The notes under the pieces are model-generated. The model was given only the letters and a program-made list of their open reading frames with translations, was not told the DNA's origin and did not search any database. A stretch of 58,324 nucleotides of DNA, from IMG/VR virus record IMGVR_UViG_3300043602_000067, positions 1 to 58,324 of that record, one strand, 5' to 3'. The translations under genes were made by a program, and so were the position numbers. Positions 890 to 24,626 of the stretch are shown in pieces (positions within the stretch are counted from its first letter, which is position 1; every line of letters begins with the position of its first letter). The stretch comes from a virus.

Positions 890-1693
890 ATGACCGAGAC
901 ATTGGAAGAGCAGGCAGGCAAGGAAACGATCGACAGCCGCGAGTTGTACGACCGCCTGAACGAGTTGGAGGACATTGCCAACTCAGCTCGTCCTCCTCAT
1001 CGTCATCCCACGTGCGCTCGTTCGCCTCTACCGCTGATGAGGCTGCTCGACCTGTTCTGTGGTGGTGGTGGTGGGGCCGCAATGGGCTACCACCGCGCAG
1101 GCTGGGAGGTTGTCGGCGTGGACAACCAGAAGCAAGGTAACTACCCGTTCACGTTCGTCCGAGGTGACGCCTTGCAGTACCTCGCGGAGCACGGCCACGA
1201 GTACGACGCCATCCACGCAAGCCCACCCTGTCAGCTCTATACCCGCAAGGATGCCAATTGGGGCAGGAAGCGCACGCACTGGCTAGAGCACCCCGACTTG
1301 ATCGGACCGACCCGCGAAGGACTGGAAGAGACTGGCCTGCCCTACGTCATCGAGAACGTGCCCGGTGCGCCGATACGGACCGACTTGATGCTGTGCGGCA
1401 CTATGTTCGATGAAACGAATATCAAGAAGCACCGGCTATTCGAGGCCAACTGGCAACTGCCCCGAGCGCCACGTCCGTGCGGCGATCACTCGCAGTGCTA
1501 CAACCCGTGGTCGAGGCCGGGTCGTAACGCGGCAAAACTGCGCGCCGCGATGGGTATCGGCTGGTTGCCGATCAGCGGCGGAGCGTCACGCAAGGCTGGC
1601 TACACCGGGGACCTATTTAACGCCATCCCACCGGCCTACACCAACTACATCGGGCGAGCACTACTGGAAACGCTACGAAAGGAAGGTGACTGA
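890..1693 (+). CDS. DNA cytosine-5 methyltransferase (Dcm-like) with N-terminal extension
   Basis: From residue 50 the protein has the full small-Dcm motif set: LLDLFCGGGGG (motif I, SAM binding), ASPPCQ (IV, catalytic Cys), ENV (VI), KKHR (VIII) and NAIPPAYTNYIG (X). It methylates cytosine C5 in DNA, probably protecting phage DNA from host restriction; no partner endonuclease is present. The start at 890 is chosen for its AGGAAGG ribosome site. It adds 49 residues, acidic and helical at first and then low-complexity, that are not part of the enzyme fold. An internal ATG at 1037 would give a normal 218-residue enzyme. Its stop overlaps the next start (TGATG). Confidence 0.88.
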   Translation: MTETLEEQAGKETIDSRELYDRLNELEDIANSARPPHRHPTCARSPLPLMRLLDLFCGGGGGAAMGYHRAGWEVVGVDNQKQGNYPFTFVRGDALQYLAEHGHEYDAIHASPPCQLYTRKDANWGRKRTHWLEHPDLIGPTREGLEETGLPYVIENVPGAPIRTDLMLCGTMFDETNIKKHRLFEANWQLPRAPRPCGDHSQCYNPWSRPGRNAAKLRAAMGIGWLPISGGASRKAGYTGDLFNAIPPAYTNYIGRALLETLRKEGD

Positions 1694-2160
1694 TGACCGA
1701 TATGACCGAGATTTACGAGGAAGGCAACGGCCCGCCGCGCTACGTCGCACGGCTGTCCCGTACCGCGCAGGGAGTGCGCACGTTCACCGTGGGCATGAGC
1801 CTGAACGGGGACGCCATCAGTGACGAGGCTGTGGGGCGACTGTTCGCTTTGGAGAATGCGATCACCAGGCAGATCGACGGCCCGCGCAAGAGCGCCAAGC
1901 TGTCGGGCCAGAGCGTCACCGCCCAGCTTCGCAAGAGCCTGGTGGTGGAACTGCTGCGCAAGCTATCGACGGCTGGAAAGCGTAGCGGCCAGTTTGTACC
2001 GCGCGAGTTGACCACGCAGGAGTTGCTAGCTGGCCTGCCCAATACCACGCGTAGCCAACTCGTGGCCGACCTGAGCGCACTGGTCCGCGAGGGCGTGCTG
2101 GATGTCGAGCAGAGCAAGGGTCGCAACCCGAGCAAGTACCGACTGGCGGCAGGCAAGTGA
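1693..2160 (+). CDS. Hypothetical protein, winged-helix-like C-terminus
   Basis: 155 residues, translationally coupled to the methyltransferase. The C-terminal half (about 90-152) alternates helices ending in LVADLSALVREGVLDVEQSKGR-like text, the shape of a winged helix whose wing is followed by basic residues, so DNA binding is plausible. The N-terminus is acidic and unrecognised. No family assignment is possible from the sequence alone. Confidence 0.7.
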   Translation: MTDMTEIYEEGNGPPRYVARLSRTAQGVRTFTVGMSLNGDAISDEAVGRLFALENAITRQIDGPRKSAKLSGQSVTAQLRKSLVVELLRKLSTAGKRSGQFVPRELTTQELLAGLPNTTRSQLVADLSALVREGVLDVEQSKGRNPSKYRLAAGK

Positions 2161-2426
2161 AGGTCTATCAATCGATTGGTGACAAGCTGATCGAGCATGA
2201 GCTTTCCGAGATCCTAGGCAGCAGCCGCACCGTATGCGACCTGCTGGTGGAGAACGCGTACACGCCCGAGACAACCGAGGGGATTGCCAACGAGGTATGG
2301 CACGCGGACTACCAGGCTCCCGCTGAGGTCATTCCTTGCCGCTTCTGCGAAAACCCTACCGAACACCCCTCGTACGGACCTACGTTCTTTGACGAGGACG
2401 AGATCCGCCGAGTGAACGAGCTATGA
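2157..2426 (+). CDS. Hypothetical protein, 89 aa
   Basis: GTG start overlaps the previous stop by four bases. The protein is acidic and contains a single CRFC pair near residue 60, too little for a zinc ribbon. No recognisable domain. Its tight overlap with both neighbours supports it as a real gene of the early operon. Confidence 0.65.
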   Translation: MKVYQSIGDKLIEHELSEILGSSRTVCDLLVENAYTPETTEGIANEVWHADYQAPAEVIPCRFCENPTEHPSYGPTFFDEDEIRRVNEL

Positions 2427-2641
2427 CCGACGAGTACATCAGTCCCTACCCCGACGATCGCATCAGCCGCGACGAGCTGGAGCGCTTGCTGCGGGGCAAC
2501 GTCTACATGCGTCGCCTGACGCTGGCGAAGCTCATCGCGGCCAACGCCACCGATAGAGCCGTGAAGGAAGCCGAGAACGCCCTGGCCGCTGCTGAGCAGC
2601 GAGCACGGGAGGAGGGAGTTGCACCATGGGCATCCAAGTAA
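2423..2641 (+). CDS. Hypothetical protein, 72 aa
   Basis: ATGA overlap with the preceding gene. The protein is almost entirely helical and charged, with an alanine-rich stretch (residues 50-65) that could form a short coiled coil. No known family recognised. The next gene starts inside its last codons, in another frame. Confidence 0.65.
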   Translation: MTDEYISPYPDDRISRDELERLLRGNVYMRRLTLAKLIAANATDRAVKEAENALAAAEQRAREEGVAPWASK

Positions 2642-3021
2642 CTGACGAGCGCAACGTGGCGCTGTTCGACTCCGTGACCGGCGTCGCGTTCGGCCCGGTG
2701 TTCGATGACGTGCCCGAGGCCGAGGCTTTCGTGAGGTGGTGGAACGATCGTCATGTAGCCACTCAGCAAGTGGACTGGCTGAGCGGCATGAACGCCGACG
2801 CAATCACTCAGCGAGCAATCACCAGCGAGTGGCGTACCCACCTCACGGACCACGCGCAGGACGATTGCCCATGGGACCGCGACGTTGACTCGTACGGTCA
2901 GGGGTTCACAGGCGACAGCGACAAGAGCCACGGCGACTACACGGCGGCAACGCCGGACTCGTGCAGTTGTGAGTGCCACAAGCGGCCAGGCGGCGCATTC
3001 GTCGCAGAAGGGAGGCGGTAA
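2626..3021 (+). CDS. Hypothetical protein, 131 aa
   Basis: ATG at 2626 follows a strong GGAGGGAG site located within the preceding gene. Residues 1-45 look like a compact beta-alpha unit (VALFDSVTG, then EAEAFVRWW), a pattern shared by small phage proteins of unknown function. The tail is rich in D and S and ends with a CSCECH cluster. No function assigned. Confidence 0.65.
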   Translation: MGIQVTDERNVALFDSVTGVAFGPVFDDVPEAEAFVRWWNDRHVATQQVDWLSGMNADAITQRAITSEWRTHLTDHAQDDCPWDRDVDSYGQGFTGDSDKSHGDYTAATPDSCSCECHKRPGGAFVAEGRR

Positions 3022-3452
3022 TGGACATACAGGTTCACGGCGTCAAGTACCACCGCAACGGCGTGAGCGGGCAGGGGTTTTTCCTCGTCGGCTTCACGTG
3101 GGTGCAAACCGATGTGTACGGACAGGAGCCGTACTCGCACGAGATGGTCGGGTGGGTCTACTCGCCGCTCACCGTGGGCGGCACCGACGAGCCGAACCCG
3201 ATCGACTGGCGGAGCCTGAAACTCGATATGGCCTACGGCGTGATCGACTTGGCCGAGCCGTGGAACACGTGGCGAGGCGATCATTTCTTCCCTGATCTGT
3301 GCGCGGCTATCGAGCAAGCCGACATCGACGGCTCGTCATTCAGCGAGCGCGGCACGTCATGGGATGACAAGCTCACACCGGGCGTGCCCCGACTCGTGCT
3401 GGAACCTGAGACTCGGCTGGTCGGTGAGGGCGTACGGATGGGTCGCATATGA
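3021..3452 (+). CDS. Hypothetical protein, 143 aa
   Basis: The start at 3021 shares a base with the previous stop (TAATG) and has GGGAGGCGG just upstream, preferred over an upstream in-frame start at 2973 that would overlap more. The N-terminal half is beta-rich (QVHGVKYHRNGVSGQGFFLVGF) and aromatic; the C-terminus is basic. Not recognised. Confidence 0.65.
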   Translation: MDIQVHGVKYHRNGVSGQGFFLVGFTWVQTDVYGQEPYSHEMVGWVYSPLTVGGTDEPNPIDWRSLKLDMAYGVIDLAEPWNTWRGDHFFPDLCAAIEQADIDGSSFSERGTSWDDKLTPGVPRLVLEPETRLVGEGVRMGRI

Positions 3453-4243
3453 CCACCGTGGTAGCCGACCCGCTGAGGCCCGCGTCACTCGATGACGTTA
3501 TCGGCCAGAGCGATGTGGTGGACGCCCTGCGCATCGCGCTCAACGGCGCTGCTGCCCGAGGCGAGCTGCCGGGGCATGTGCTGCTGGGAGGCCCGGCAGG
3601 CACCGGCAAGACCACGCTGGCACTGTGCATCGCAGCGGCGGTAGGCGGTCGCCTGGTGTCGCTCATAGGTCCCTCTGTGCGCCGACCCAGCGACCTGCTG
3701 AGTACGCTGATGGTGGCGCAGGACAGGGACGTGATCTTCATCGATGAGATACACCGCATGTGGCGCCCGGCACAGGAGTTTCTCTTTCCGGTCATGGAGG
3801 ACGGCAAGCTGACATTCGAGAACACGGGCAGGACGGTGGAGATGCCACCGCTGCTGTTCATAGGCGCCACCACGGAGCCTGAGCGGTTGCTGACGCCGAT
3901 GCTTGACCGCTTCGCCACGATCCTGAAGCTGAGGCTGTACCGCGTCGATGAGCTGATGCTCATTGCCGATCGAGCGGCAGGCAAGCTGGGCTGCGCGCTG
4001 GGCGCAGGCGCATCTCGGGCGATAGCCGAGGCTGCCGCTGGCGTCCCTCGCGTGACCATCCGCCTGGTGAAAGCGGCACGCGACTACGCGTACGCGGACA
4101 TCGACCCTGTGAGTGTGAAGCTCTACAAGGCAGTGGTGCCACCCGAGCAACAGCGAGCCATTCGCATCGATGCCGAGGACGTGCGCGAAGTGCTGGCGTC
4201 ACCGGCCTACCAGTGGCGCATGGAAGGGAGAGAGGCAGGGTGA
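3449..4243 (+). CDS. RuvB-like AAA+ ATPase
   Basis: 264 residues with the RuvB core: DDVIGQSDVVDALRIAL, Walker A GPAGTGKTT (48-56), Walker B FIDEIHR (97-103) and sensor-1 segment IGATTEPERLLTPMLDR with the arginine finger. RuvB drives Holliday-junction branch migration. Here the order of motifs matches, but the protein is shorter than cellular RuvB (about 330-350) and its C-terminal winged-helix domain is not recognisable. It may load or remodel a replication or recombination complex with the nearby RepA-like helicase. ATGA overlap with the upstream gene. Confidence 0.85.
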   Translation: MTTVVADPLRPASLDDVIGQSDVVDALRIALNGAAARGELPGHVLLGGPAGTGKTTLALCIAAAVGGRLVSLIGPSVRRPSDLLSTLMVAQDRDVIFIDEIHRMWRPAQEFLFPVMEDGKLTFENTGRTVEMPPLLFIGATTEPERLLTPMLDRFATILKLRLYRVDELMLIADRAAGKLGCALGAGASRAIAEAAAGVPRVTIRLVKAARDYAYADIDPVSVKLYKAVVPPEQQRAIRIDAEDVREVLASPAYQWRMEGREAG

Positions 4244-4464
4244 TAACCGTATATATCGGTCATACGATCATCGACGATCTGTACCGCCACGTGCGCGATG
4301 GACACGGCCTACCGCTCTCAGGGGAGTGGACGCTGGACTCGCTGCTGGATACGCACCGGACGCTGCACAGCGTGAACGGCGGGCTGCAACAGTGCATCCA
4401 CGCGCCCGCCCACACGAGCGTGTGGCAGTGCGACCAGTACGTCTATACGGACATGAAAACGTGA
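4240..4464 (+). CDS. Hypothetical protein, 74 aa
   Basis: GTG start overlaps the stop of the RuvB-like gene. The sequence begins with a hydrophobic beta strand (ITVYIGHTII) and carries two cysteines and several histidines (CIHAPAHTSVWQC), so metal binding is possible but unproven. No family recognised. Confidence 0.6.
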   Translation: MITVYIGHTIIDDLYRHVRDGHGLPLSGEWTLDSLLDTHRTLHSVNGGLQQCIHAPAHTSVWQCDQYVYTDMKT

Positions 4465-4550
4465 CTTACAATCGACCGACGCGAGAGGCGGGTGGCTCTC
4501 CAGGCGCCCGCCTCCGCTACTTGGAGAGAGGACGCCACGATGATCCATGA
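4461..4550 (+). CDS. Possible 29-aa peptide, coupled at both ends
   Basis: A GTG at 4461 overlaps the previous stop and the frame ends in a TGA that overlaps the next ATG at 4547. The product is basic (R and G rich) with no recognisable domain. The two overlaps fit the operon pattern; the text is short enough that it may only serve translational coupling to the helicase gene. Confidence 0.4.
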   Translation: MTYNRPTREAGGSPGARLRYLERGRHDDP

Positions 4551-5797
4551 GTAGCCAACCCGCTCCCGACTACGAGGATGACCACGGCCCTGAGCCGCAG
4601 GCACCGCCAGATGATGTGCTCACCGCCGCTGCCGAGCGCATAGCGGCGCAACGAGAGGAACAGGACGCCGACCACCGGGCGTACGTGGACTGGCAGGCAG
4701 AGCGCTGGGTACGCGCCATGGAGGTGGTACCCGACGAGGACGCGGATGCGCTCAACGAGGTCATGCTCGATTTCACCAACGTACCCCCGCGCGAGCTGCG
4801 CCCCGACCTGGCGGCGATCATGGATCGTTACGGCATCACCGGGGAAATGGATGCCGCCGACCTGCTGGACCTGCACATAGATCCACCGCGCACGATCGTC
4901 GAGGGCATCATCGCCGCAGGCACCACCGTGCTCGCCTCGCTGCCCAAGCTGGGCAAGAGCTGGATGTGTCTCCAACTGGCCATAGAGTGCGTGCTGGGGG
5001 GCACTTTCCTTGATCGCGACGTGGAGCAGGGTGACGTGCTGTACCTGCCCTTGGAGGACGGCCGCGGCAGGACGCAGAGCCGCATGGTCAAGGTGCTGGA
5101 TGGCAGGACGCTGCCACGCGGCAAGCTGACGGTGCGCTGGGATGCACCCCCACTGGGCGATGGCATGGAGGGCTTGATCGAGGAATGGCTAGATGCCCAC
5201 CCCGACGCGGCGATGGTCATCGTTGACACGCTGGGCCGGGTACGCACGCCGGGCGATGGCAGGCGCAATGCCTACCAGGTGGACGTACAGGACGTGGGTC
5301 GTCTGCAAAGCCTCGTGCGGGACAGGGCCGTGGCGCTCATCCTTGTGCACCACACCAAGAAGGGCAAGGAGGACGATTTCGTTGCCCAGGTGAGCGGCAC
5401 GCTGGGCATCGCAGGCAGCGCCGACACGATCCTCATCGTCAACCGCAAGCGGCTGGTCGAGGTGGGCACAGTGGACATCACCTCGCGCGAGCTGCCAGAG
5501 GCAGAGGTAGCGGTGCGCTTCGCTGACTCCATATGGCATAGCGCGCCCGATGCGCTACCCGGCGCAAGCGCCGCGAAAATGGCCGTTTACGACACGATCT
5601 CACTCCATGGACCACTCTGGCCGGTGGGCATCGGAAGGTTTCTGAGGAGTGAGAGGACCGCTGTGCAGCATCACTGCTCCTCACTCTTGCAGGACGGTGC
5701 GATAGTGCGCACAGCGGCCGGTTACGTCACTGCGGAGAGCATTGGAATGCAGGCTGGCAGCGTGGATGAGGACGGAAATCCTCACTCCATTCACTGA
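4547..5797 (+). CDS. RepA-like replicative helicase ATPase
   Basis: 416 residues of the hexameric RecA-fold RepA/AAA_25 group. A charged 110-residue N-terminus precedes Walker A SLPKLGKSW (131-139), Walker B MVIVDTLGRVR (about 221-231) and the motif ILVHHTKKGK that ends the ATPase core. The C-terminal 100 residues look like a winged helix that may contact DNA. Such enzymes unwind the origin during plasmid and phage replication. The gene end and the bases just after it are dense in AGTGAG/CTCACT motifs, as expected if the origin lies here. Confidence 0.85.
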   Translation: MSSQPAPDYEDDHGPEPQAPPDDVLTAAAERIAAQREEQDADHRAYVDWQAERWVRAMEVVPDEDADALNEVMLDFTNVPPRELRPDLAAIMDRYGITGEMDAADLLDLHIDPPRTIVEGIIAAGTTVLASLPKLGKSWMCLQLAIECVLGGTFLDRDVEQGDVLYLPLEDGRGRTQSRMVKVLDGRTLPRGKLTVRWDAPPLGDGMEGLIEEWLDAHPDAAMVIVDTLGRVRTPGDGRRNAYQVDVQDVGRLQSLVRDRAVALILVHHTKKGKEDDFVAQVSGTLGIAGSADTILIVNRKRLVEVGTVDITSRELPEAEVAVRFADSIWHSAPDALPGASAAKMAVYDTISLHGPLWPVGIGRFLRSERTAVQHHCSSLLQDGAIVRTAAGYVTAESIGMQAGSVDEDGNPHSIH

Positions 5798-5928
5798 TCT
5801 CACTGTGAGTGAGCAGAGTGAGCGTAGTGAGAAAATGCCCATAAATGGGCTTGTGTGTGTATCTCTCACTGCCTCTGTCAAAAGGAAGGTCCATGGGGTG
5901 TGTATATGGCTGTCTTTATATGAGTGAG
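5599..5928. repeat. AGTGAG/CTCACT iteron-like cluster (candidate origin)
   Basis: AGTGAG or its complement occurs at 5599, 5648, 5680, 5781, 5799, 5808, 5817, 5826, 5865 and 5923. The copies at 5808, 5817 and 5826 are exactly 9 bp apart and follow an inverted copy, forming CTCACTGTGAG. The cluster straddles the end of the helicase gene and the following gap. Tandem iterons beside an initiator or helicase gene are typical of replication origins; a regulator array is the alternative. Confidence 0.5.
5837..5850. terminator. Small hairpin GCCCAT-AA-ATGGGC
   Basis: Six-base perfect stem with a two-base spacer, followed by a TG-rich run rather than a clean T tract. It may be a weak terminator or part of the origin-like region. 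Confidence 0.25.
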
Positions 5929-6234
5929 GAGAGAGAGGGGTACCCGCGTACGCGCGTACGCGCGCGCGAGGCGACGGATGAGCTGAACGATCTGGCCTTG
6001 TCAGCGCCACGCGTCAAGAGTCGCCAGGTAAAGCGTTGGCGGGTGGTAGGGATGCCGCGTATCGGTGGCGTGCTGGTACGTCATCGACAAAGCGGTGAGG
6101 TCGTGCTGGTTGACCCGCGATCAGAGCAAAGGCGTACGCCCGGCTATTGCGTGGCGCCTGACGAGCATCGGGTCAACGCCTGGTACACACGTAATGGCTG
6201 GACCGAGTGCAGCACGTGCGTGGGGCACCCATGA
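5920..6234 (+). CDS. Hypothetical protein, 104 aa
   Basis: The ATG at 5920 is chosen because codons before it fall in the AGTGAG repeat region and look non-coding. The product is basic and contains RQVKRWRVVGMPRIGG and a C-terminal CSTC pair. Bases 5945-5968 inside it are a strictly alternating purine-pyrimidine run (CGCGTA units), unusual in coding DNA and prone to Z-form. No family recognised. Confidence 0.55.
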   Translation: MSEEREGYPRTRVRAREATDELNDLALSAPRVKSRQVKRWRVVGMPRIGGVLVRHRQSGEVVLVDPRSEQRRTPGYCVAPDEHRVNAWYTRNGWTECSTCVGHP

Positions 6235-6461
6235 CCTGCTCAGTCTGCGCAACGCCCATCGACAGTTCTCTCCAATACGCCTCGTGTGCGATCGAGGGCA
6301 CGTGCCTGGCGCACTGCTCCGATTTCGTTGGTCACTGCTCACCGGTACCCGAGCAGGAGCGCGAGGACGCGGCGCGAGCGCTGGACCTGGAAAGGCAGAT
6401 GCGAGAGCTAGATGCGTTCGGTGATGGCTGGGCAGGCATGGATGACGGCGATGGTGGCTGA
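6231..6461 (+). CDS. Small cysteine-rich protein, 76 aa
   Basis: ATGA overlap with the preceding gene. The N-terminal half has CSVC near residue 3 and then CAIEGTCLAHC, four to five spaced cysteines resembling a zinc-binding knuckle. The C-terminus is an acidic helix. Probably a small zinc protein; function unknown. Confidence 0.6.
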   Translation: MTCSVCATPIDSSLQYASCAIEGTCLAHCSDFVGHCSPVPEQEREDAARALDLERQMRELDAFGDGWAGMDDGDGG

Positions 6462-6540
6462 CTGCGCTCCCATCTGCGGATGTGAACGCCAATACCCCCT
6501 GGGTACCCCCCTGGTTGATTTTCAGGACGTGGACGAATGA
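6451..6540 (+). CDS. Possible 29-aa cysteine-containing peptide
   Basis: ATG 6451 (or GTG 6454, which would overlap the previous stop) opens a frame ending in TGA that overlaps the next gene's ATG at 6537. The product contains CAPICGC near its start. Perfect packing between two genes supports expression; the shortness keeps confidence moderate. Confidence 0.45.
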   Translation: MVADCAPICGCERQYPLGTPLVDFQDVDE

Positions 6541-7040
6541 GGCAGGGAATTACGACGCGGCAGGCGATCGTGGTCATCAGTGAAGCTCTCGGCTGGCCGG
6601 TGTCCATAGGCAAGCTGCAACGGGTCATGGGCGAGTTGGACAAGGACGGCAGGCTGTCTGACGATCACGCGAATACGGGCATGCTGTACCCCGAGGATGT
6701 GGATGAGCTGTCTGGTGAGCTGTGGAGGATGCGTGCGGGCTGGTACCAGCGCAGGAATGTGAAAGGGGATATGTCGGCGTGGGTCATGGCCAAGCTGGGC
6801 GTGTGGCGCCTGCTGCGCATCCCGTACGCACGCACGTGGCTGAGCCAGGCAGAGCGGGAGAAGGATGAGCTACCGGACGAGGTGGTGGTTTATGCCTGGC
6901 CTACAGGGGAGCCGGTGGGCAAGCTGCTGCGGGTAGAGGATCGAGATGGCGTGCTGGCCTACGTGGACGCAGCCCTCTACACGAGATCCAAGCTGAGGCT
7001 GCATCGGGCGGTAGAAAGTCCAGCGGCCGACGAAAACTAA
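6537..7040 (+). CDS. Hypothetical HTH-like protein, 167 aa
   Basis: The first 60 residues (TTRQAIVVISEALGWPVSIGKLQRVMGEL...) have the helix pattern of an HTH with a conserved G-W turn, suggesting DNA binding. The middle has a tryptophan-rich segment. This is the last gene before the second control region; it may be a regulator of that region, but no family is recognised. Confidence 0.6.
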   Translation: MRQGITTRQAIVVISEALGWPVSIGKLQRVMGELDKDGRLSDDHANTGMLYPEDVDELSGELWRMRAGWYQRRNVKGDMSAWVMAKLGVWRLLRIPYARTWLSQAEREKDELPDEVVVYAWPTGEPVGKLLRVEDRDGVLAYVDAALYTRSKLRLHRAVESPAADEN

Positions 7041-7061
7041 TAGGCGAGCTTGTAAAGGAAA

Positions 7062-7085
7062 GCCCTAAGAGGCGCCCTAAGAGCC
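7062..7085. promoter_or_regulatory. Tandem CCTAAGAG operator copies (second control region)
   Basis: GCCCTAAGAG(G/C)C is repeated head to tail with a 12-bp period (7062-7073, 7074-7085). It contains the same CCTAAGAG octamer that flanks the leftward promoter at 641-670. No strong promoter overlaps it here, so it could act as a roadblock or silencer site. Confidence 0.5.
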
Positions 7086-7166
7086 ACCCCTGGCCGATGT
7101 AAGAAACCCATGTCCATGGGAATGGTAGGGATTGTTGTCTGGTTGGTAACTACCCTGGTTATCAGG

Positions 7167-7176
7167 TTGTCAGACA
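7167..7176. promoter_or_regulatory. TTGTCAGACA site (copy 2)
   Basis: Ten bases identical to the palindrome at 717-727, in the same position between the CCTAAGAG repeats and the GTCAAC/GTTGAC operator. The surrounding 7086-7257 contains no gene. Confidence 0.4.
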
Positions 7177-7257
7177 GATCGGCGCGTAGGCTCCGCCCTT
7201 GCGAGTTCGGCGGGTAGGCCGGGTCCGTTCGGCACAGTAGGCGCCGTCCTGGTAGAT

Positions 7258-7318
7258 GTCAACCGTCTAGGCGCCACAATCTGGACAGTTGACAGGCTAC
7301 GGTGTAGGGGTTTACAGT
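7258..7318 (+). promoter_or_regulatory. Rightward promoter with inverted-repeat operator (copy 2)
   Basis: GTCAACCGTC (7258-7267) and GACAGTTGAC (7284-7293) repeat the arms seen at 790-824. The -35 TTGACA (7289-7294) is inside the right arm; TACAGT (7313-7318) follows after 18 bp. It should drive the gene run starting at 7376 under the same repressor as the copy at 790. Confidence 0.6.
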
Positions 7319-7375
7319 CCGCCTAGCAGCTCGGCCGAACGTGCCGGGCGCCCCGTACACCGGAGGTTACATAGG

Positions 7376-7633
7376 ATGTCACGGACCCACCACAATGCGC
7401 GAGATGCGCGACGCTCAGAACGGGCATTAGCTCGCCAGCGTCGCTATGCCGCAACGGAAACGGCCGAACGGATTATCTCGGCCGAGAGTCACACCGATGC
7501 GCGGTATCTCCCCTACTACGCGGCCGATGGCCGAGAATTACCCGTTATCGTGGCCGAAGATGCCGAGGGTATCCACGTCCGTTACGCATCGGGCGCAACG
7601 GCGATCGTGGCCGGAATTGGCGGCGCAAAGTGA
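7376..7633 (+). CDS. Hypothetical protein, 85 aa
   Basis: ATG at 7376 is preceded by CGGAGG at suitable distance. The first 30 residues are strongly basic and H-rich; the rest is a small beta unit (RELPVIVAEDAEGIHVRYASG). This gene opens a cassette with codon choice unlike the neighbouring blocks (more GCG, GAT, TAT, frequent CGGCCG and GGCGCC). Not recognised. Confidence 0.65.
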   Translation: MSRTHHNARDARRSERALARQRRYAATETAERIISAESHTDARYLPYYAADGRELPVIVAEDAEGIHVRYASGATAIVAGIGGAK

Positions 7634-8541
7634 GTGAGGCGATAGAAACCCGTTTCTATGATGCAACGGGCACGTTACTGTCCGATGATGCGGCGCCCGC
7701 CATACGGATAACGGGTAGCGCACCGGATGCCGCACGGTATCGGGTAGAGATCCTGCCCGACTACTATCCCGAAAGTCCGCGCGATATGACGGATGTAGCG
7801 CTAACGGAAATTGTGACCTGGCGCCACGATCGGCACGGCCTAGGCGATCGCGGACTAACGGATGGGGAGTCGGCCGCGCTAGAGCATGGTGGATGGGAAG
7901 CGTTGCGGAAGCATCTACAGCGCGCTACGGACGGCCTAGCGCTATTGCTTCCCATCTCGGGTATAGATCACTCGGGTATCTCACTGTGGATTGCATCCGG
8001 CCTAAACGAGACATCGCCTATGGATACGGCCGGATGGGATAGCGGCCAATGGGGTTTTCTACTCGTCACGGCCGAGCGTGCCCGCGAAGTAGGTCTGGAC
8101 CCGGCCGGGTATGGCGCGGAAACGGCTGAGTCTCCCGTAAATGTACGCCTAGGGTTCAGCTCAGTACCCGTGACAGTCTCGCGCATTGAGGCTAGCGCAC
8201 GTGCCGAGTTTGCCGAGTATGCCGCCTATGTCGGCGGCGATGTATACGGGTACTCGATTGAGAAGTTAGAAACCTGGACAAAATCGCCATTTCCTTTGGG
8301 TACCCAATGGCGCGAAACGGAAACCCGTACGGAATGGGAAACCGTAGGCGGATGCTCGGGTTTCTACGGGTCAGAAACTGCGAACCTGGCCTATGTATGG
8401 GAGTCGGCCGAGAGTGAGCTACTCGGCATCATCTCGGCCGAGAATGCGCCGCCTATTGCCGCGCACGATCACATAGGCGGCATCTACCCGAACTATTGCC
8501 GCGTATGCGGCGCGAATTTCACGCCGGAACTAGTCCGATGA
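7630..8541 (+). CDS. Conserved phage protein of unknown function (DHSG / WDSGQ type)
   Basis: GTG start overlaps the previous stop. Residues about 105-150 contain GIDHSGISL and GWDSGQWGFLLV; later VGGDVYGYSIEKLE and GGCSGFYGSE follow. This order (Y/DHSG, WDSGQ-G, GDVYGY, C-GFyG) is a signature of a protein common in actinobacteriophages and related plasmids, with no known role. C-terminal CRVCG may bind metal. Same compositional block as its neighbours. Confidence 0.75.
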   Translation: MSEAIETRFYDATGTLLSDDAAPAIRITGSAPDAARYRVEILPDYYPESPRDMTDVALTEIVTWRHDRHGLGDRGLTDGESAALEHGGWEALRKHLQRATDGLALLLPISGIDHSGISLWIASGLNETSPMDTAGWDSGQWGFLLVTAERAREVGLDPAGYGAETAESPVNVRLGFSSVPVTVSRIEASARAEFAEYAAYVGGDVYGYSIEKLETWTKSPFPLGTQWRETETRTEWETVGGCSGFYGSETANLAYVWESAESELLGIISAENAPPIAAHDHIGGIYPNYCRVCGANFTPELVR

Positions 8542-8852
8542 CTACGCGCGATCGATTGGAGTATCTCCGCGCGGAGATCCGCGCCGAGCGTATTAGCTAT
8601 GGCGAGATTGCTGAACTGTCTGACCTGGCGGAATACATAAACCCGAGTGATACCGAACTATTGGAGTGGGCCGGTGTGCCCGAATTCGGACCCGAGCGCG
8701 AAGCACAGGCGGAAGCGTACGCGCGACATAGCGGCGCAGTGACAATCGAATTCGCGCGAGATGACACCGGAAATCTGCGGCCAGTGGATTTTAGTTCGGA
8801 TGGGGTCGCATGGCCAGATAGCGGCGCCAGCGCGCCAGAAAGTGAGGTTTAG
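8538..8852 (+). CDS. Conserved small phage protein (ISYGEIAEL type)
   Basis: 104 residues, ATGA overlap. The text RISYGEIAELSDLAEYINPSDTELLEWAGVPE is close to a short helical unit repeatedly found in actinobacteriophage and mobile-element hypothetical proteins. Function unknown. It lies inside a run of such conserved proteins, possibly a host-interaction set. Confidence 0.7.
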   Translation: MTTRDRLEYLRAEIRAERISYGEIAELSDLAEYINPSDTELLEWAGVPEFGPEREAQAEAYARHSGAVTIEFARDDTGNLRPVDFSSDGVAWPDSGASAPESEV

Positions 8853-8855
8853 ATA

Positions 8856-9134
8856 ATGGCGGCATTGAGGGGCACAATCGAGGGTGATAGGACCCGTGCA
8901 AACAGTGACGCGGTTTCTACGCGTCTAGCAGATAGGCGCCTAACGGCTCGCGCTGACACATGGCGCACGTTTGCCACAATCGAACTGAACCGTGACGGTA
9001 GCGGCGCAGTGACAGTGAAACAGAATGGCGCGACGATATTGCATGCCGAGTTCAGCTCGGAAACGGCCGAGATGCCGCACGTAGCGGTGCGCACGGTGGG
9101 CGATCCTGATATGGCGCCCGGAGTGATCGAGTGA
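8856..9134 (+). CDS. Conserved small phage protein, 92 aa
   Basis: ATG at 8856 after a GAGG site. The centre (ETWRT-like segment, then TIELNRDGSGAVTVKQNG) forms a beta hairpin pattern shared by small actinobacteriophage proteins of unknown role. Ends in a GTGA overlap with the next gene. Confidence 0.65.
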   Translation: MAALRGTIEGDRTRANSDAVSTRLADRRLTARADTWRTFATIELNRDGSGAVTVKQNGATILHAEFSSETAEMPHVAVRTVGDPDMAPGVIE

Positions 9135-9292
9135 ACCGCTGTCGCGCCTATTTCTACGGCCGTGGGATTATCCAATATCGGCACGGGCACCGTTGCGAGC
9201 TATCGGCCGGGCACGCCGGTCAGCATCGTGCAATGGGTCACTTTCTGGACCCTAGAGCCGAGCACGTATGGGGCCGGGAGGTGCGCAAGTGA
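9131..9292 (+). CDS. Small H/R-rich protein, 53 aa
   Basis: GTG at 9131 overlaps the previous stop; the TGA overlaps the next GTG at 9289. The product is rich in H, R and G with two cysteines (NRCRAYFYGRG, then HRCELSAGHAGQH), the C-x2-H-like spacing of a minimal zinc site. Packing on both sides supports it. Confidence 0.6.
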   Translation: MNRCRAYFYGRGIIQYRHGHRCELSAGHAGQHRAMGHFLDPRAEHVWGREVRK

Positions 9293-9774
9293 CGTTAGAG
9301 CCTATGCCCGAACTGCGCGGTTCAGCGGCGCATAGCTTCGCCTACTACGGAAACCGTGAGGGTTGGCTTATAGCGCTATCAGTAAACCGTGACAGTGACG
9401 CGCTGGCGCGATCGAATTGGAGCGTCATCACTGCGGACCTATTCGGCCGCTATGGGGAGGGACCCGAAACAGAGCATGCCGAGGATATGGCCATTGAGCG
9501 CATGCACCATTGGGCGTGTGGGTGGGTGGATTATCTGTTAGTCCGTCCTGGTAGTGAGGCAGCACAGGCGGCTAACGTATGGCGCGAGAAGCTAGACGAG
9601 TACCCGGTCGCGGATGAGGCTAGCTTCTCAGAATTGGAGTTCAGCGAAGAATGGTGTACCCGTTGCGATCGGGGCACGCGTGCCGAGCATCCGTTGCACG
9701 GTTGCCCGTTCCGTTCGGCGGATGAGGCGGACGAGATTAGGTATCGCTGGACTCACCGGGAGGTGAGCGCGTGA
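9289..9774 (+). CDS. Conserved phage protein (FAYYGNREGW type), 161 aa
   Basis: GTG start by overlap. The N-terminus SFAYYGNREGWLIALSVNRDSDALARSNW and VDYLLVRPGS match a conserved actinobacteriophage protein of unknown function. The C-terminus adds CTRCDRGTRAEHPLHGCPF, a probable zinc-binding motif. The coupled order with its neighbours repeats in related phages as far as I recall; that is memory, not a search. Confidence 0.7.
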   Translation: MTLEPMPELRGSAAHSFAYYGNREGWLIALSVNRDSDALARSNWSVITADLFGRYGEGPETEHAEDMAIERMHHWACGWVDYLLVRPGSEAAQAANVWREKLDEYPVADEASFSELEFSEEWCTRCDRGTRAEHPLHGCPFRSADEADEIRYRWTHREVSA

Positions 9775-10055
9775 CGGCCGTACGCTACGCGCGAGATGCG
9801 CAAGGGTTGGACACAGGGGCGAGTGACGCCACGCCCATAGACACCACTGTGACCAAACCGTCTAGCAACCAATTCCTGACGGTTGCGCGTATCGTAGGCG
9901 CCGTGCTGGACGCGTTGAGCGCTGGTGCGCGCAGTGCTGCACACGGGGATACTAGCGGCCTCACGTACGCTGATGGATGGACTAGCGCAGCTACCCTGGC
10001 GCGACTGGTGTCCGCCGACACCATGGCCGAGATCATCTCGCCCCGCGAGGTTTAG
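9771..10055 (+). CDS. Hypothetical protein, 94 aa
   Basis: GTG start overlapping the previous stop. Alanine-rich, with a helical centre (LTVARIVGAVLDALSAGARSA). Last gene of the 7376-10055 cassette. No family recognised. Confidence 0.6.
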   Translation: MTAVRYARDAQGLDTGASDATPIDTTVTKPSSNQFLTVARIVGAVLDALSAGARSAAHGDTSGLTYADGWTSAATLARLVSADTMAEIISPREV

Positions 10056-10173
10056 CCCCTCGGCAATTAGCCCCTGGACCGTTTCGAGAGAAATGGCCAG
10101 GATGTAAGGGGGCCTTCCTCACACGTTTGATGGCCTCCGCGGGAGTTGCCCACGTCGTAGCCTCCGTAGTCGC

Positions 10174-10202
10174 TTGACGCCCTCCGCGGCACCGGCTACA
10201 CT
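10174..10202 (+). promoter_or_regulatory. Rightward promoter
   Basis: TTGACG (10174-10179), a 17-bp spacer and TACACT (10197-10202) make a strong SigA-type promoter. The predicted start near 10209 falls right at the foot of an inverted repeat. Upstream, 10056-10173 holds no gene; it has a direct repeat of TTAGCCCCT (about 10053 and 10067). Confidence 0.7.
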
Positions 10203-10210
10203 GTGGTCAA

Positions 10211-10264
10211 TGCCAGCGGGGAAGGTTTGCTAGGTCGTCTAGAGCACGTGCACATCCGCTGGCA
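10211..10264 (+). promoter_or_regulatory. Structured 5' leader
   Basis: TGCCAGCGG (10211-10219) pairs perfectly with CCGCTGGCA (10256-10264). The enclosed 36 bases contain CTAG-GTCGT-CTAG and the palindrome GCACGTGC. The structure begins at the predicted transcript start and ends about 30 bases before the first ATG, so it may stabilise the mRNA or regulate it. No known riboswitch class is recognised. Confidence 0.45.
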
Positions 10265-10293
10265 GTAAATACGCCGCGCAGGAGGGCCACGCC

Positions 10294-10416
10294 ATGGACA
10301 ACATCTGGAAATGGGTCAGCGTCTGGTTGAAGAACGTCGATCCTTGGCCCGGCTCATGGGACTGCCCACCGCGGCCGCACTCGCACATCGTTGGGCCGAA
10401 GGCGGTCAAGCGATGA
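10294..10416 (+). CDS. Small protein, 40 aa
   Basis: ATG at 10294 has GGAGG nine bases upstream and is the first start after the leader. The product is tryptophan-rich (WKWVSVWLKNVDPWPGSW), so it may be membrane-associated. Its TGA overlaps the next ATG. Confidence 0.55.
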   Translation: MDNIWKWVSVWLKNVDPWPGSWDCPPRPHSHIVGPKAVKR

Positions 10417-10766
10417 GCAACTGGCACCCACAGCCCCGCATCCGCTTCAGGCTAGGTCGTGCCTGGCGCGTGGTGCGCGAGAAGATGCGCGACATGGAGC
10501 GCGCCGGTAAACCATTCCCGCCTAATGGTGGCACTCCGTTGTGGTTCATGGAGGTCAGCGGGCCGACCGGTAACCCACCACAGTGGGATGCCAAGGTGTG
10601 GCGGCACAAGCAGAAGACCTTCGATACGAACAACCCCACGATCGTGACCCTGCGTAGCAAGCATCGTTGGCCGCAGCCCACCAGCGAGGCCGAGGCGCTG
10701 GAGTCGCTGATCGAGGTCATCGACGAGTACGTGGCAGCGCGCAAGGCGAAGGGGAAGAAGCCATGA
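10413..10766 (+). CDS. Hypothetical protein, 117 aa
   Basis: The start at 10413 uses an ATGA overlap. The protein is basic with a tryptophan-rich N-terminus (WHPQPRIRFRLGRAWRVVREKM) and a helical C-terminus. Not recognised. Confidence 0.65.
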   Translation: MSNWHPQPRIRFRLGRAWRVVREKMRDMERAGKPFPPNGGTPLWFMEVSGPTGNPPQWDAKVWRHKQKTFDTNNPTIVTLRSKHRWPQPTSEAEALESLIEVIDEYVAARKAKGKKP

Positions 10767-11092
10767 GCAACCTGCGCGACCTGGAGAGAGCTGCGACACC
10801 TGCGCCGTGGTTTGCCGAGGATAAGCATCCCTACGGCGATGCTTTACGACCCAACACCATTGTCACGGAGACCGGTGGCGCGATCGCTGGTGTCTACTGG
10901 CGCGTTCGTGATGCAGGAGAGCCAGACGCCAGCTTCATCGCAGCCCTCCGCAACGCTGCGCCGCTGCTGCTGGATGTGGTGGACGCTGCGCGACCTGTCG
11001 AAGAAACGCTATCCCGCAAGGGCAGCGTTCAGATCGACCAATGGCGTCGGCTCCGTGATGCCCTCGCGGTACTGAATGAGGCCATGAAATGA
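10763..11092 (+). CDS. Conserved small phage protein, 109 aa
   Basis: ATGA overlap. The pattern LERAATPAPWFAED ... DASFIAALRNAAPLLLDVV is shared by widespread phage proteins of the Ead/Ea22-like kind, whose role is unknown. The match is by pattern memory only. Confidence 0.65.
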   Translation: MSNLRDLERAATPAPWFAEDKHPYGDALRPNTIVTETGGAIAGVYWRVRDAGEPDASFIAALRNAAPLLLDVVDAARPVEETLSRKGSVQIDQWRRLRDALAVLNEAMK

Positions 11093-11325
11093 CCGATCTG
11101 CTGCAGCGCCTCTACCACCACTTGGTCCACCGAGCCCCACTGCTGACCTGTAAGAAGTGCGATCGGGTGTGGGCCGCGTTGCTTGCCGACGATGGCTTTC
11201 GAGAGCGCCTCGATAAGAGCATCAAGGATGTGGACGAGGGCCGCTGGTACCACTACGACCGAGGTGTGATGACGCCCAACCCGGACTGGCCCGAGGACGG
11301 CGAGCAGCCTAGGGAGCCAAAGTGA
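11089..11325 (+). CDS. Hypothetical protein, 78 aa
   Basis: ATGA overlap. Contains one CKKC pair near residue 22, after a histidine-rich helix (YHHLVHRAPLLT), perhaps a partial zinc knuckle. Acidic C-terminus. No family recognised. Confidence 0.6.
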   Translation: MTDLLQRLYHHLVHRAPLLTCKKCDRVWAALLADDGFRERLDKSIKDVDEGRWYHYDRGVMTPNPDWPEDGEQPREPK

Positions 11326-11585
11326 CCGGCGACGAGCGGCATGCGGAGACGTGTGGCTGCTGGGAATGCGAGGGCCGCGAGCCTGACGCGCGCAACGTGT
11401 ACGTGGATCTGCGCCAGTACTGCTCCTGCGCCCACTGTGGCAAGCGTGAACAGTTTGGCTTCGGTGACGTGTGGACGGTGCTGGCCGACCCCTACCCGCG
11501 CACTCCCGCGATGGCTGCGGGGATCAGCGATCATGTCTGGACATGCGCAATGGAGAAGGAGGTCGGAGGCGGGTCTGGCAGTTAA
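11322..11585 (+). CDS. Cysteine-rich zinc-ribbon-like protein, 87 aa
   Basis: GTG start overlapping the previous stop. Cysteines CGCWEC near residue 11 and CSCAHC near residue 34 are two CxxC-type knuckles, consistent with one zinc site. Phage zinc ribbons often bind DNA or mediate protein contacts; nothing more specific is visible. Confidence 0.6.
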   Translation: MTGDERHAETCGCWECEGREPDARNVYVDLRQYCSCAHCGKREQFGFGDVWTVLADPYPRTPAMAAGISDHVWTCAMEKEVGGGSGS

Positions 11586-11597
11586 CCGGAAATGAAC

Positions 11598-11636
11598 GAC
11601 GGCCGGGGGAGAGTTTGGCAACCAGCCCCGGCCGTC
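11598..11636 (+). terminator. Strong GC hairpin
   Basis: GACGGCCGGGG (11598-11608) and CCCCGGCCGTC (11626-11636) form a perfect 11-bp stem with a 17-base loop just after the last gene of the block. There is no T tract, so termination would need another factor, as is common in actinobacteria. The next 225 bases (11637-11862) hold no gene, only a short repeat of GGCCGATTC near 11744 and 11754. Confidence 0.5.
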
Positions 11637-11862
11637 AATTCGTCCGTCAGTGGGGCGCGACGTAGGTCCCCGTGTCCGTTGAGAGGTTCCCGGGATGGGG
11701 GCGGATCCCATGTGCTCCACCAACTCCGCACTTGAATTATGGCCGATTCAGGCCGATTCGTCAAGATGAAACTGATTCCTATGCTTGACACAACGGCCGT
11801 ACTCAACCCGAGGGTGCTATCTGGGAGTTCTGCGCGAAATGCTTGGAGGCCGAGTCCGCCTC

Positions 11863-11891
11863 TTGACACCTCTCCGTAGGCACACTACTCT
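11863..11891 (+). promoter_or_regulatory. Rightward promoter for the sulfatase block
   Basis: TTGACA (11863-11868), 17 bp, TACTCT (11886-11891). The -10 sits inside ACTAC-TCT-GTAGT, a small inverted repeat. This is the best-matching promoter in the window and leads into the gene at 11952 and the sulfatase operon. Confidence 0.75.
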
Positions 11892-11951
11892 GTAGTCGGT
11901 GTACACGTCCGCAGACGGGGGCACATTCACAGCACATAAGGAGGAACCATC

Positions 11952-12206
11952 ATGCGCGTTGTAGTTGACGGCACCACCCACCCCATTCACGACGACTCGC
12001 CCAGCCTGGGTGCTGTTGCCCGTGACCCCGAGGGACATCTGACCGAGGTGCAGGTGGCGGATCTGGGCAACGGCGAGTTGAACATCATCGTTTTCGGTAA
12101 CACCCGCGTGGACCACGACCACCGGGGAAACCTGCGCATCCACGTCGTCTCTACGGCCGTGATCCCCACCGCAGGCAAGCAGTGGCCATTTCCGAAGGAG
12201 CGCTGA
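11952..12206 (+). CDS. Hypothetical protein, 84 aa
   Basis: ATG preceded by AAGGAGGAACC, one of the strongest ribosome sites in the window. The protein is a beta-rich unit (MRVVVDGTTH, LTEVQVADLGNGELNIIVFGNTRVDHDHRG), similar in feel to other small actinobacteriophage beta proteins. First gene after a strong promoter, so probably abundant. Role unknown. Confidence 0.65.
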   Translation: MRVVVDGTTHPIHDDSPSLGAVARDPEGHLTEVQVADLGNGELNIIVFGNTRVDHDHRGNLRIHVVSTAVIPTAGKQWPFPKER

Positions 12207-12207
12207 C

Positions 12208-12384
12208 GTGGACGTAAACGGCAACGCCCAGGTTGGCACGGACGAGGAGTTCATGGCCGAGGTGCGCGACGCGCGTGAGAACGGCTACGACGTGCTGTGC
12301 GCCGAGTGCGGCACTGGCATGGCAGGCGACGGCATGGAGATGCACGTTCGCGGCTGCTCGCAGTTCGTGGAGCCGCGCTCATGA
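12208..12384 (+). CDS. Small zinc-finger-like protein, 58 aa
   Basis: GTG at 12208 has GAAGGAG upstream. The acidic N-terminus is followed by CAEC, then H and C in MHVRGC, a C2HC zinc-knuckle spacing. The TGA overlaps the sulfatase start (ATGA). Function unknown. Confidence 0.6.
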   Translation: MDVNGNAQVGTDEEFMAEVRDARENGYDVLCAECGTGMAGDGMEMHVRGCSQFVEPRS

Positions 12385-13775
12385 GGAAGATACTGCTCCT
12401 GCTGATCCTCGCCTCGCTGGCGGCAGCTCTTGCGCCCGTGGGGGTCGATGCACGTAAAAGAGGAGTACACGTCGTGACAACTGCACCAGCCGACGCGCCG
12501 GACATCGTGGTCGTCATGGCCGACGACCTGGGCGCGCAGCCGATGGCCACGCGGTTGATGCCGCGCTTGGCCAACATGAACGACCTGTTCGTCCAGAACG
12601 GGCTGTGGCTGGCCGGTGCCTACAGCGAGACGCCGTTGTGCTGCCCCGGTAGGGCCAGCTTCCTGTCGGGACAGCACACGCGCAGGCACGGCATCGTGGA
12701 CAACCTCCATCCGGGCGTGTTCGACCCCAGCAACACGATCGCTACCGCGCTCCATGACGGCGGCTACCGGACGGCGCTCATCGGCAAGTACCTGAACCAC
12801 GCCGAGAAGCTGTATGACAAGACGCCTCCGGGCTGGGATCGAGTGGTCATGCACGCCGGGACGAATGCCGGATCGGGTGGCTACTGGTACGTCGATGGGG
12901 TGCGCGTCGAGAGCGCACAGATGGGCTATGCCGACCGCGCTACGGCCAACGAGAGCCAGGCTTTCGTCCAAGGCGCGCCGCTCGACAAGCCGCTCTTCCT
13001 GTATGCCAACCCACACGCTGGGCACGCCGACAGCGGTATGTCCAAGGCCGGTACGCCGTGGCTGCCCGCGGTCGAGCCGCAGTACGCCAACGACCCGCGC
13101 TGCGCCGGTATCGAGCCGTGGAAGATGCCCGGCTACGACTACGACGTGCGCCCTGATGGCTTCCCGCTCGACGCCATCTGCCGCTCGCTGCTGACGGTCG
13201 ATGACATGGTGGGCCAGCTCAGGACGGCCATGGCCATCCGCGAGCTGCAGACGGGACGACAGACGGTGTGGCTTTTCATGGCCGACAACGGCATGTCGTG
13301 GGGCGCCGACGGGGTGTCCGGCAAGGGCGTTCCACAGGCGGGGAAGCTGCCCCTCTGGTTCGCCTCCACGAGCGCCAGCGGAACGCCGCTGGTGATGCGC
13401 GGCAGCGCGGCCAACCTGATCAGCAACATCGACCTCGCGCCGACGCTGGCGGCACTGGCGGGAACGACCATGCCCCGCGCCGATGGCGTGTCGTTCGCTC
13501 CGATGCTGAACGGATCGTGCGCCGATGGTGGCGCGGGCTGCGGTCGTGAGTGGATGCTGGAGGACTTCCCTGTGCCCTTCATCACCAGCGGCCCGTGGGC
13601 GGGCGTGGCGTGGTGGGGCGTGCGTAAGCCCATCTGGCACCTCGTCCAGCGCGTGGGTCAGTCAGCACTGCTGTACGACCTGCGCGTGGACCCGTGGGAG
13701 CAGAACGACGTTCATGCCAGCCATCCGAACGTGACCAGGAACATGAAGGCCCTGGCCGACCCGTTGCTGCCATGA
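12381..13775 (+). CDS. Secreted sulfatase (formylglycine-dependent, S1 type)
   Basis: 464 residues beginning with a classic signal peptide (MRKI, then a 16-residue hydrophobic core rich in L and A, then AxA-like sites near 17-24). The sulfatase core follows: metal-binding ADD (47-49), the formylglycine box C87-C-P-G-R91 in PLCCPGRASFLSG, K136 in LIGKYLNH, the ADNG metal pair D302-N303, and K315 in GKG. The usual CxPSR has Gly for Ser. Such enzymes hydrolyse sulfate esters after a host enzyme converts the Cys to formylglycine. A sulfatase in a phage is rare. It probably acts outside the membrane on sulfated host glycans or lipids, but the substrate cannot be read. ATGA overlap upstream; overlap downstream. 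Confidence 0.9.
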   Translation: MRKILLLLILASLAAALAPVGVDARKRGVHVVTTAPADAPDIVVVMADDLGAQPMATRLMPRLANMNDLFVQNGLWLAGAYSETPLCCPGRASFLSGQHTRRHGIVDNLHPGVFDPSNTIATALHDGGYRTALIGKYLNHAEKLYDKTPPGWDRVVMHAGTNAGSGGYWYVDGVRVESAQMGYADRATANESQAFVQGAPLDKPLFLYANPHAGHADSGMSKAGTPWLPAVEPQYANDPRCAGIEPWKMPGYDYDVRPDGFPLDAICRSLLTVDDMVGQLRTAMAIRELQTGRQTVWLFMADNGMSWGADGVSGKGVPQAGKLPLWFASTSASGTPLVMRGSAANLISNIDLAPTLAALAGTTMPRADGVSFAPMLNGSCADGGAGCGREWMLEDFPVPFITSGPWAGVAWWGVRKPIWHLVQRVGQSALLYDLRVDPWEQNDVHASHPNVTRNMKALADPLLP

Positions 13776-13903
13776 ACGATGATAAGTTCGGCCGCTCCTG
13801 CCCGGTGTGCGCCAAGCGCTTCGAGCCGACGTTCCTGCGCCGCCACGTAGGGCTGAAACACCCCACATTCGACCTGAAGCTACTAAAGGAGGTAGGGAAA
13901 TGA
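13772..13903 (+). CDS. C2H2 zinc-finger mini-protein, 43 aa
   Basis: The start at 13772 overlaps the sulfatase stop (ATGA). CPVC-x11-H-x4-H fits the C2H2 zinc-finger pattern, and basic residues in the helix (FLRRHVGLKH) suit nucleic-acid binding. Such single-finger proteins occur in phages without assigned roles. Confidence 0.6.
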   Translation: MNDDKFGRSCPVCAKRFEPTFLRRHVGLKHPTFDLKLLKEVGK

Positions 13904-14172
13904 CAGAGAAGCACAATCCTTGGCGAGACGCCGCGGAAATGGCCAAGCCCATCGAGGAGATCGAGGCGCCCGGGCGGATAGAGCCTGACTACCAGGTATC
14001 CAAGGTCAGGCTGGTGCAGCACAAGACTGAGGCCCCCATGAGGGACACCTTCGAGCTGTGGGTCAACGACGTGCCGGTGATGACCTCGGGCGGTGTTGAC
14101 GTGGAGTTTCGGAAGGGCCAGCGCACCGTGGTGGTCGCCCGGCTGATCGTGGAAGACCTGGTGATCGAATGA
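13900..14172 (+). CDS. Hypothetical protein, 90 aa
   Basis: ATG 13900 follows AAAGGAGGTAGGGAA. Beta-rich C-terminal half (RDTFELWVNDVPVMTSGGVDVEFRKG). No family recognised. Coupled to the membrane protein that follows (ATGA). Confidence 0.6.
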   Translation: MTEKHNPWRDAAEMAKPIEEIEAPGRIEPDYQVSKVRLVQHKTEAPMRDTFELWVNDVPVMTSGGVDVEFRKGQRTVVVARLIVEDLVIE

Positions 14173-14552
14173 CTGCTGACGAGATCCTGCGACTACTCGA
14201 CGAGCTGGGTGCGCGGCTGGAGGGACCGGGGCGCTACGTATTCGACCTGACTGTGCGCCAAGTCGTCGTTGGCGGCATCCTCGGGCTGGTGGTGGGCATC
14301 GCCCTGTGGGTGGTCGTACTGGCGATGGTCGTGATGATCATCGTTCTGATCCGCCGCTATGAGGAGACGGAAAATAAGAAGAGCTACTACGACTCCGACA
14401 ATGACGGGATAGCCGCTTCGCTGCTCGTGGTACTGGCGCTGGTGGTTGCCTTATTCGCCACGGCAGTCACGTTCACCTCGCTCATGTCGCTGCTCAACCC
14501 TGAGTACACGGCGCTTGCCAACTTGGTGAGCCTCATCCGAGGTCCGAAGTGA
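14169..14552 (+). CDS. Membrane protein, 127 aa
   Basis: A 30-residue amphipathic N-terminus precedes a long hydrophobic segment (about 30-60, one or two helices) and, after a polar loop with YEETENKKS, a second hydrophobic stretch (about 82-110). It is probably in the host inner membrane. No family recognised; holin-like or superinfection roles are possible but unsupported. Confidence 0.65.
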   Translation: MTADEILRLLDELGARLEGPGRYVFDLTVRQVVVGGILGLVVGIALWVVVLAMVVMIIVLIRRYEETENKKSYYDSDNDGIAASLLVVLALVVALFATAVTFTSLMSLLNPEYTALANLVSLIRGPK

Positions 14553-18731: not shown

Positions 18732-18761
18732 TTGACACCCCCACGGCGTAGCGTTTAGAGT
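18732..18761 (+). promoter_or_regulatory. Promoter for the non-coding region
   Basis: TTGACA (18732-18737) with TAGAGT (18756-18761) after 18 bp, or TTAGAG after 17. The predicted start near 18768 precedes no credible gene for over 350 bases, which suggests the transcript itself is the product or a long leader for the head genes. Confidence 0.65.
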
Positions 18762-24479: not shown

Positions 24480-24626
24480 ACGATGTAGGTAAGTCGTACC
24501 GGCGAAATCCGGGCGACCCGAAAGTTGGCACGACGAGCCTTGCGCTCGCGACGTGGGTTAGTCCAGAAGCCCGAGCTTCAATCACACCCTGACGAGCCGA
24601 CTACCCAAACTGAAGAAAGGCGGCAC

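Follow-up and report, generated by a model that had tools for sequence, protein, structure and literature searches.

The window, i.e. the whole stretch of DNA analysed here, comprises the 58,324 bases of an IMG/VR record, shows no exact terminal repeats and encodes a protein of the S1 sulfatase family within a compact operon (Table 1). The sulfatase ORF runs from an ATG at position 12381 through 464 codons to a TGA stop at positions 13773-13775 and is transcribed in the direction of the late region. The initial annotation had placed this gene in an operon, and the ATGA-type start/stop overlaps at positions 12381, 13772, 13900 and 14169, together with an AGGAGG before position 11952, bear this out. 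Its further statement that the operon is led by the best promoter in the genome goes too far, as the promoter-like site is one of five TTGACA-N16-18-TANNNT sites found in the window (0.34 expected; positions 820-848, 7289-7318, 11863-11891 and 18732-18761 on the forward strand and 7234-7262 on the reverse strand) and is absent from the list returned by a sigma-70 scan of the window. In three of the five sites, the spacer contains an inverted repeat resembling CTACGnCGTAG. The spacer motif in the promoter of a relative phage, CCGCATTGTGGTAC, differs from that of the window, and the pattern TTGACA-N8-CGNNGTAG, tried as a common promoter form, found no match because the spacers differ.

Table 1. 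Features of the sulfatase gene and its surroundings in the window.
Feature	Coordinates	Strand	Remarks
Accessory segment, ~4.1 kb	10056..14168	+	Absent from relative L003
Promoter-like site TTGACA-17-TACTCT	11863..11891	+	Before the sulfatase operon; one of five TTGACA-N16-18-TANNNT sites
84-aa ORF	11952..12206	+	First gene of the operon; strong AAGGAGG ribosome site
58-aa ORF	12208..12384	+	CxxC...HxxxC pattern, no Pfam match; stop overlaps sulfatase start
S1 sulfatase, 464 aa	12381..13775	+	PF00884 90.4 bits; AlphaFold pTM 0.84
Predicted signal peptide, residues 1-24	12381..12452	+	Hydropathy; cleavage after VDA-24 by eye and -3/-1 rule
Metal ligands D48 D49	12522..12527	+	43/43 relatives
Formylglycine box C87-C-P-G-R91	12639..12653	+	C87 and R91 in 43/43 relatives
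Catalytic K136 (GKYLN motif)	12786..12788	+	42/43 relatives
Catalytic H215	13023..13025	+	43/43 relatives
Metal ligands D302 N303	13284..13289	+	42/43 and 41/43 relatives
Catalytic K315	13323..13325	+	42/43 relatives
43-aa C2H2-zinc-finger-like ORF	13772..13903	+	Sequence CPVCAKRFEPTFLRRHVGLKH; weak zinc-finger Pfam matches; start overlaps sulfatase stop
90-aa ORF	13900..14172	+	Start/stop overlaps on both sides
127-aa membrane protein	14169..14552	+	39% conserved in the sulfatase-less relative

The Pfam Sulfatase model (PF00884) matches residues 40-361 of the protein (score against a cut-off of 25 bits; E-value 1.7e-25) and is covered from position 1 to 300 of its 301 positions, i.e. as a full-length domain; NCBIfam and PDB sequence searches again return sulfatases. 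The formylglycine box of the S1 family has the form C/S-x-P-x-R; its Cys is converted to formylglycine, and the attack of this residue on the sulfate ester is aided by calcium, lysines and a histidine. An alignment with 43 relatives reveals the complete set of catalytic and metal-binding residues (Asp48, Asp49, Cys87, Arg91, Lys136, His215, Asp302, Asn303 and Lys315), comprising the formylglycine box, the calcium ligands and the catalytic Lys, His and Lys. Each of these nine columns is kept in at least 41 of the 43 relatives while the overall identity is only ~30%, a conservation that, judged from the alignment, is not due to chance. Some family-typical residues are altered, for instance the His of G-E-H-R, which is Asp310 here. 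The N-terminus follows a Sec-type pattern, with MRK, a hydrophobic stretch (KD mean of 2.7) and a VDA-R junction. Thus, the Pfam match, the 43-relative alignment and the hydropathy sustain the earlier description of a full-length S1 sulfatase with signal peptide, C-C-P-G-R box, metal clusters and catalytic lysines. The protein is a real and complete sulfatase that is probably functional and predicted to be secreted; it matches no defence family of PADLOC.

The AlphaFold model of the protein, for which 20 sequences were aligned, has a mean pLDDT of 77.6, with modest confidence in parts and a pLDDT below 50 at residues 308-313. Foldseek matched the model to 278 PDB chains at E ≤ 0.001, and the 50 best matches listed are all sulfatases, the best folds being those of BT3177 (S1_11), BT4656 (GlcNAc-6-sulfatase) and BuS1_11 (galactose-6-sulfatase). 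On this model, the window protein has an alkaline-phosphatase-like sulfatase fold. The best folds and the profile matches are to S1_11, and a phylogenetic tree groups the protein (support of 99/95) with the GNS-like 'CCPSR...GKYLN' sulfatases that Actinomycetota and Chloroflexota encode. Its branch is long, however, with 2.3-2.5 changes per site where the median is 0.7, and the protein is a candidate member of the S1_11/GNS-like 6-O-sulfatase subgroup. The best bacterial matches are concentrated in one actinomycetotal class, where 13 of 27 genomes have matches at E ≤ 1e-35, the best with 38% identity. Of two trees, one points to no particular donor and the second gives a moderate link to a Chloroflexota protein (87/89), which we do not claim as the origin.

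The window also encodes a terminase (phrog_2), a portal protein, head proteases or capsid, tail-fibre-like proteins, a DNA polymerase I-like protein, a helicase, an exonuclease, Sak4 and methyltransferases, and its terminase, portal, capsid/head, tail-fibre-like and replication genes identify it as a tailed phage. The named phages closest to its terminase include actinophages, at only 27-30% identity, and matches to its DNA polymerase reach 39% identity and are led by a spring contig and Streptomyces phages. When 396 Actinomycetota genomes were searched for the terminase, just one weak match emerged. The TTGACA-N16-18-TANNNT promoters presumably fit an actinobacterial host, and the host is probably actinomycete-like, judging from these sequence clues. 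No integrase or repressor was found among the genes scanned (which comprise part of the small ORFs of a contig that may be incomplete), and lysogenic conversion therefore lacks positive support. Three other forward-strand genes of this genome are of note. A 264-aa RuvB-like Holliday-junction helicase motor (positions 3449-4243; RuvB_N 124.6 bits plus lid domain), unusual for a phage, is shorter than bacterial RuvB and 69% conserved in relative L003. Directly 3' of the capsid protease gene lies a gene for a 1043-aa fusion of a GT2 glycosyltransferase, TPR, a methyltransferase and GT1 (positions 24525-27656), a candidate for virion glycosylation. A 411-aa protein (positions 31015-32250) contains 20-residue-periodic repeats (D1/D2 repeat families, 60-bp spacing) and has no family match.

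A search of 2.9 million viral contigs found only one close relative, a sulfatase-less fragment of 20 kb (L002/L003; 68% for the terminase and 72% for the portal). The genes that flank the accessory segment (positions 9771-10055 and 14169-14552) are ~4.1 kb apart in the window versus ~89 bp in L003, as measured between ORF limits. The L003 homologue of the membrane protein gene at position 14169 comes immediately after a similar promoter and a CACAGCACA...GGAGG leader, whereas in the window the same CACAGCACA leader precedes five extra genes including the sulfatase. It follows that the sulfatase cassette was either gained in the window phage or lost in L003, inside a standing phage transcription unit. 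As the closest relative lacks the 4.1-kb segment, we regard the sulfatase as accessory cargo; by sequence, it is a moron-like gene that is absent at a conserved place in the one relative compared. Its codon usage (score of 0.323 against 0.15-0.39 for core genes; GC3 of 0.854) is that of the portal, helicase and polymerase genes, and this phage-like usage argues for long residence as opposed to a recent transfer or an assembly error.

Sulfatases had been described in the initial annotation as very rare in phages, which holds for isolates and fails for uncultivated phages. Among 50,697 phage isolate records we found no credible S1 sulfatase, a statement that does not extend to the matches in the Acinetobacter phage MD-2021a contigs. 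One match proved to be a Salmonella contig filed as phage, and another, in the record of 'Campylobacter phage A11a', an E. coli-like yidJ on bacterial DNA. Unverified gut scaffolds account for most of the remainder; all of these were rejected, and a human-gut scaffold (L008), on which the sulfatase adjoins an anSME-like gene, was left uncounted. The 'Campylobacter phage A11a/A18a' records MG065691.1 (L137) and MG065686.1 each hold an apparent E. coli chromosomal stretch with a sulfatase that we take to be yidJ-like, and these deposits are likely contaminated. A search of the literature on phage-encoded sulfatases found FGE-domain proteins in phages and no sulfatases. A viral scan with the window protein as single sequence also returned nothing, and viral relatives appeared only with alignment-based queries, which recovered seven further GNS-like cases from IMG/VR (L128-L134), most of which, on inspection, show an export signal at the N-terminus. 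Other S1 types occur on at least 31 IMG/VR contigs, a minimum set by the reach of the peptide patterns used, and a coarse check for phage hallmarks was negative for most of these contigs.

Phage genes do stand near several of these sulfatases: terminase and portal in L129, L132 and L133, terminase in L134, a tail fibre and a minor head protein in L128, capsid in L010, tail collar and tape measure in L012, and terminase or portal on the other S1-type contigs L141, L160/L161, L165, L168 and L171. A terminase gene follows the sulfatase gene on the same strand, at a distance of ~1-6 kb, in the window and in L132, L133, L134, L160/L161, L168 and L171. Tail-fibre or CBM/adhesin genes are found beside the sulfatase in L128 and L130. 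In L130 (positions 1604-11635), the sulfatase gene lies shortly 3' of that for a 1779-aa adhesin-like protein with a CBM_4_9 domain, a pair that suggests a glycan-recognition plus desulfation module. The viral sulfatases scatter in the tree, requiring six changes of which at least three are forced by well-supported branches, and a single viral clade appears in none of 200 bootstrap trees; for this reason, phages probably captured such sulfatases several times.

The explanation that we consider the best overall, and believe with somewhat more confidence than doubt, is that of a captured, exported and host-matured S1 sulfatase with which a tailed phage desulfates glycans outside the cytoplasm. 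We hypothesize that the phage acquired a GNS-like or S1_11-like sulfatase gene from a bacterium in the distant past and that selection has since maintained it as accessory cargo. The protein would be translated as part of the phage operon, its Cys87 would be oxidised to formylglycine by a host enzyme prior to export, and the Sec pathway would carry it outside the cytoplasm, where it would desulfate (probably at 6-O positions) glycans or glycolipids in the envelope of the host or in the matrix around it. The export signal and the carbohydrate 6-O-sulfatase neighbours suggest that the substrate is such a glycan or glycolipid, either extracellular or in the envelope. As to the most likely benefit, we offer tentatively that an altered sulfated surface or matrix might permit the release of progeny without re-adsorption to debris, or might make rival phages adsorb more poorly. 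The initial annotation had suggested superinfection exclusion, receptor change or sulfate scavenging as possible purposes.

Bacterial sulfatases are classically tied to sulfate supply, and this established link, along with the predicted export signal, would also suit an enzyme that frees extracellular ester sulfate for cysteine and methionine synthesis during infection. We consider such scavenging rather unlikely, given that the phage genes scanned include none for sulfate transport, PAPS or cysteine, that the product of a secreted enzyme goes to neighbours too, and that several viral copies adjoin tail or adhesin genes and not metabolic ones. The lack of sulfur-assimilation genes, the transcription towards the late region and the tail/adhesin neighbours lead us to favour local surface editing over scavenging, a preference that we hold loosely.

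A hydrolase of the alkaline phosphatase superfamily might instead act on another ester, such as a phosphonate monoester or a phosphodiester. Phosphonate monoester hydrolases have the same formylglycine box and fold, and the family profile, when compared with the PDB, does match one of them (PDB identifier 2w8s) with 164 bits. Sulfatases score clearly higher, with the GlcNAc-6-sulfatase 5g2v at the top with 293 bits, and the uniformity of the best folds listed and the retained GNS-type GKYLN motif make this reading quite improbable.

Maturation of the sulfatase bears on whether the protein is active. An HMM search of the window phage for a formylglycine-generating enzyme (FGE) found none, and queries with Streptomyces FGE and anSME likewise returned nothing, so that maturation must come from a host enzyme. 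In the actinomycetotal class with the nearest homologues (that of genome G105), FGE (PF03781) and anSME (TIGR03942) are each found in one of the 27 genomes, and in the same one (G116). On these sequence counts, with 26 of the 27 genomes devoid of both, maturation is not assured. Across the 396 Actinomycetota genomes, a strong FGE match is present in 11 of 75 genomes with a P0001-like sulfatase versus 28 of 321 without one, where the E-value line dividing FGE from EgtB was set by us. Many Cys-type (CCPSR) S1 sulfatases are encoded in the class of G105 (loci L097-L109 and L121-L125) despite the near-absence of FGE and anSME. This scarcity possibly reflects incomplete genomes or another formylglycine route, and it bears on the activation of Cys-type sulfatases in the many Actinomycetota that carry them and have no recognisable FGE. 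Together with the very long branch of the window protein and the lack of an FGE in the phage, it would accord with a decaying or catalytically dead passenger, for example in a host unable to make formylglycine. Against this stand the nine catalytic positions, intact at ~70% divergence, the codon usage like that of core phage genes, and the intact ORF in a tight operon, and we consider a dead passenger no more probable than a hydrolase of another ester. An assembly chimera, or the erroneous binning of bacterial DNA with a viral contig, for which the yidJ and Salmonella records provide precedents, is barely credible here, as the codon usage and GC of the sulfatase fit the phage, small phage ORFs overlap it on either side, and the phage promoter and leader occur at the same place in L003.

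The enzyme family itself has long been known, and what is new is its phage-borne and repeatedly captured form. A broader proposal seems to us distinctly unlikely: that S1 sulfatases for export form a class of phage cargo, captured again and again independently, which desulfates surface or matrix glycans of the host as a prokaryotic counterpart of viral receptor-destroying enzymes, in hosts that use an unknown formylglycine route. Repeated capture of exported sulfatases by unrelated phages would make sulfated glycans an overlooked layer of phage-bacterium contact.

Among known systems, the S1_11 carbohydrate 6-O-sulfatases (BT4656, PDB identifier 5g2v; BT3177, PDB identifier 7p24; BuS1_11, PDB identifiers 7lha and 7lj2) and the GNS group share with the window protein the fold, the formylglycine box, the metal ligands, the catalytic lysines and the histidine. 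The window protein differs from the S1_11 enzymes in being phage-encoded and shows 16-18% identity to them in structural alignments. The GNS-like sulfatases of Actinomycetota and Chloroflexota (for example, L097, L112 and L013) have the CCP[S/G]R and GKYLN motifs in common with it at ~30-38% identity, but they reside in bacterial genomes and on far shorter branches, and the phage copy groups firmly with none of them. Phage depolymerases and other exported or tail-borne glycan-editing enzymes are likewise exchangeable cargo directed at glycans outside the host cytoplasm, as the sulfatase would be. Depolymerases cut chains, whereas the sulfatase would remove sulfate. In a viral structure library, sulfatase folds come solely from giant eukaryotic viruses, and the sulfatase-annotated proteins of Satyrvirus, Yasminevirus and Tetraselmis virus 1, which are the only clear matches there, share 13-16% identity with the window protein and belong to viruses of eukaryotes that are unrelated to tailed phages.
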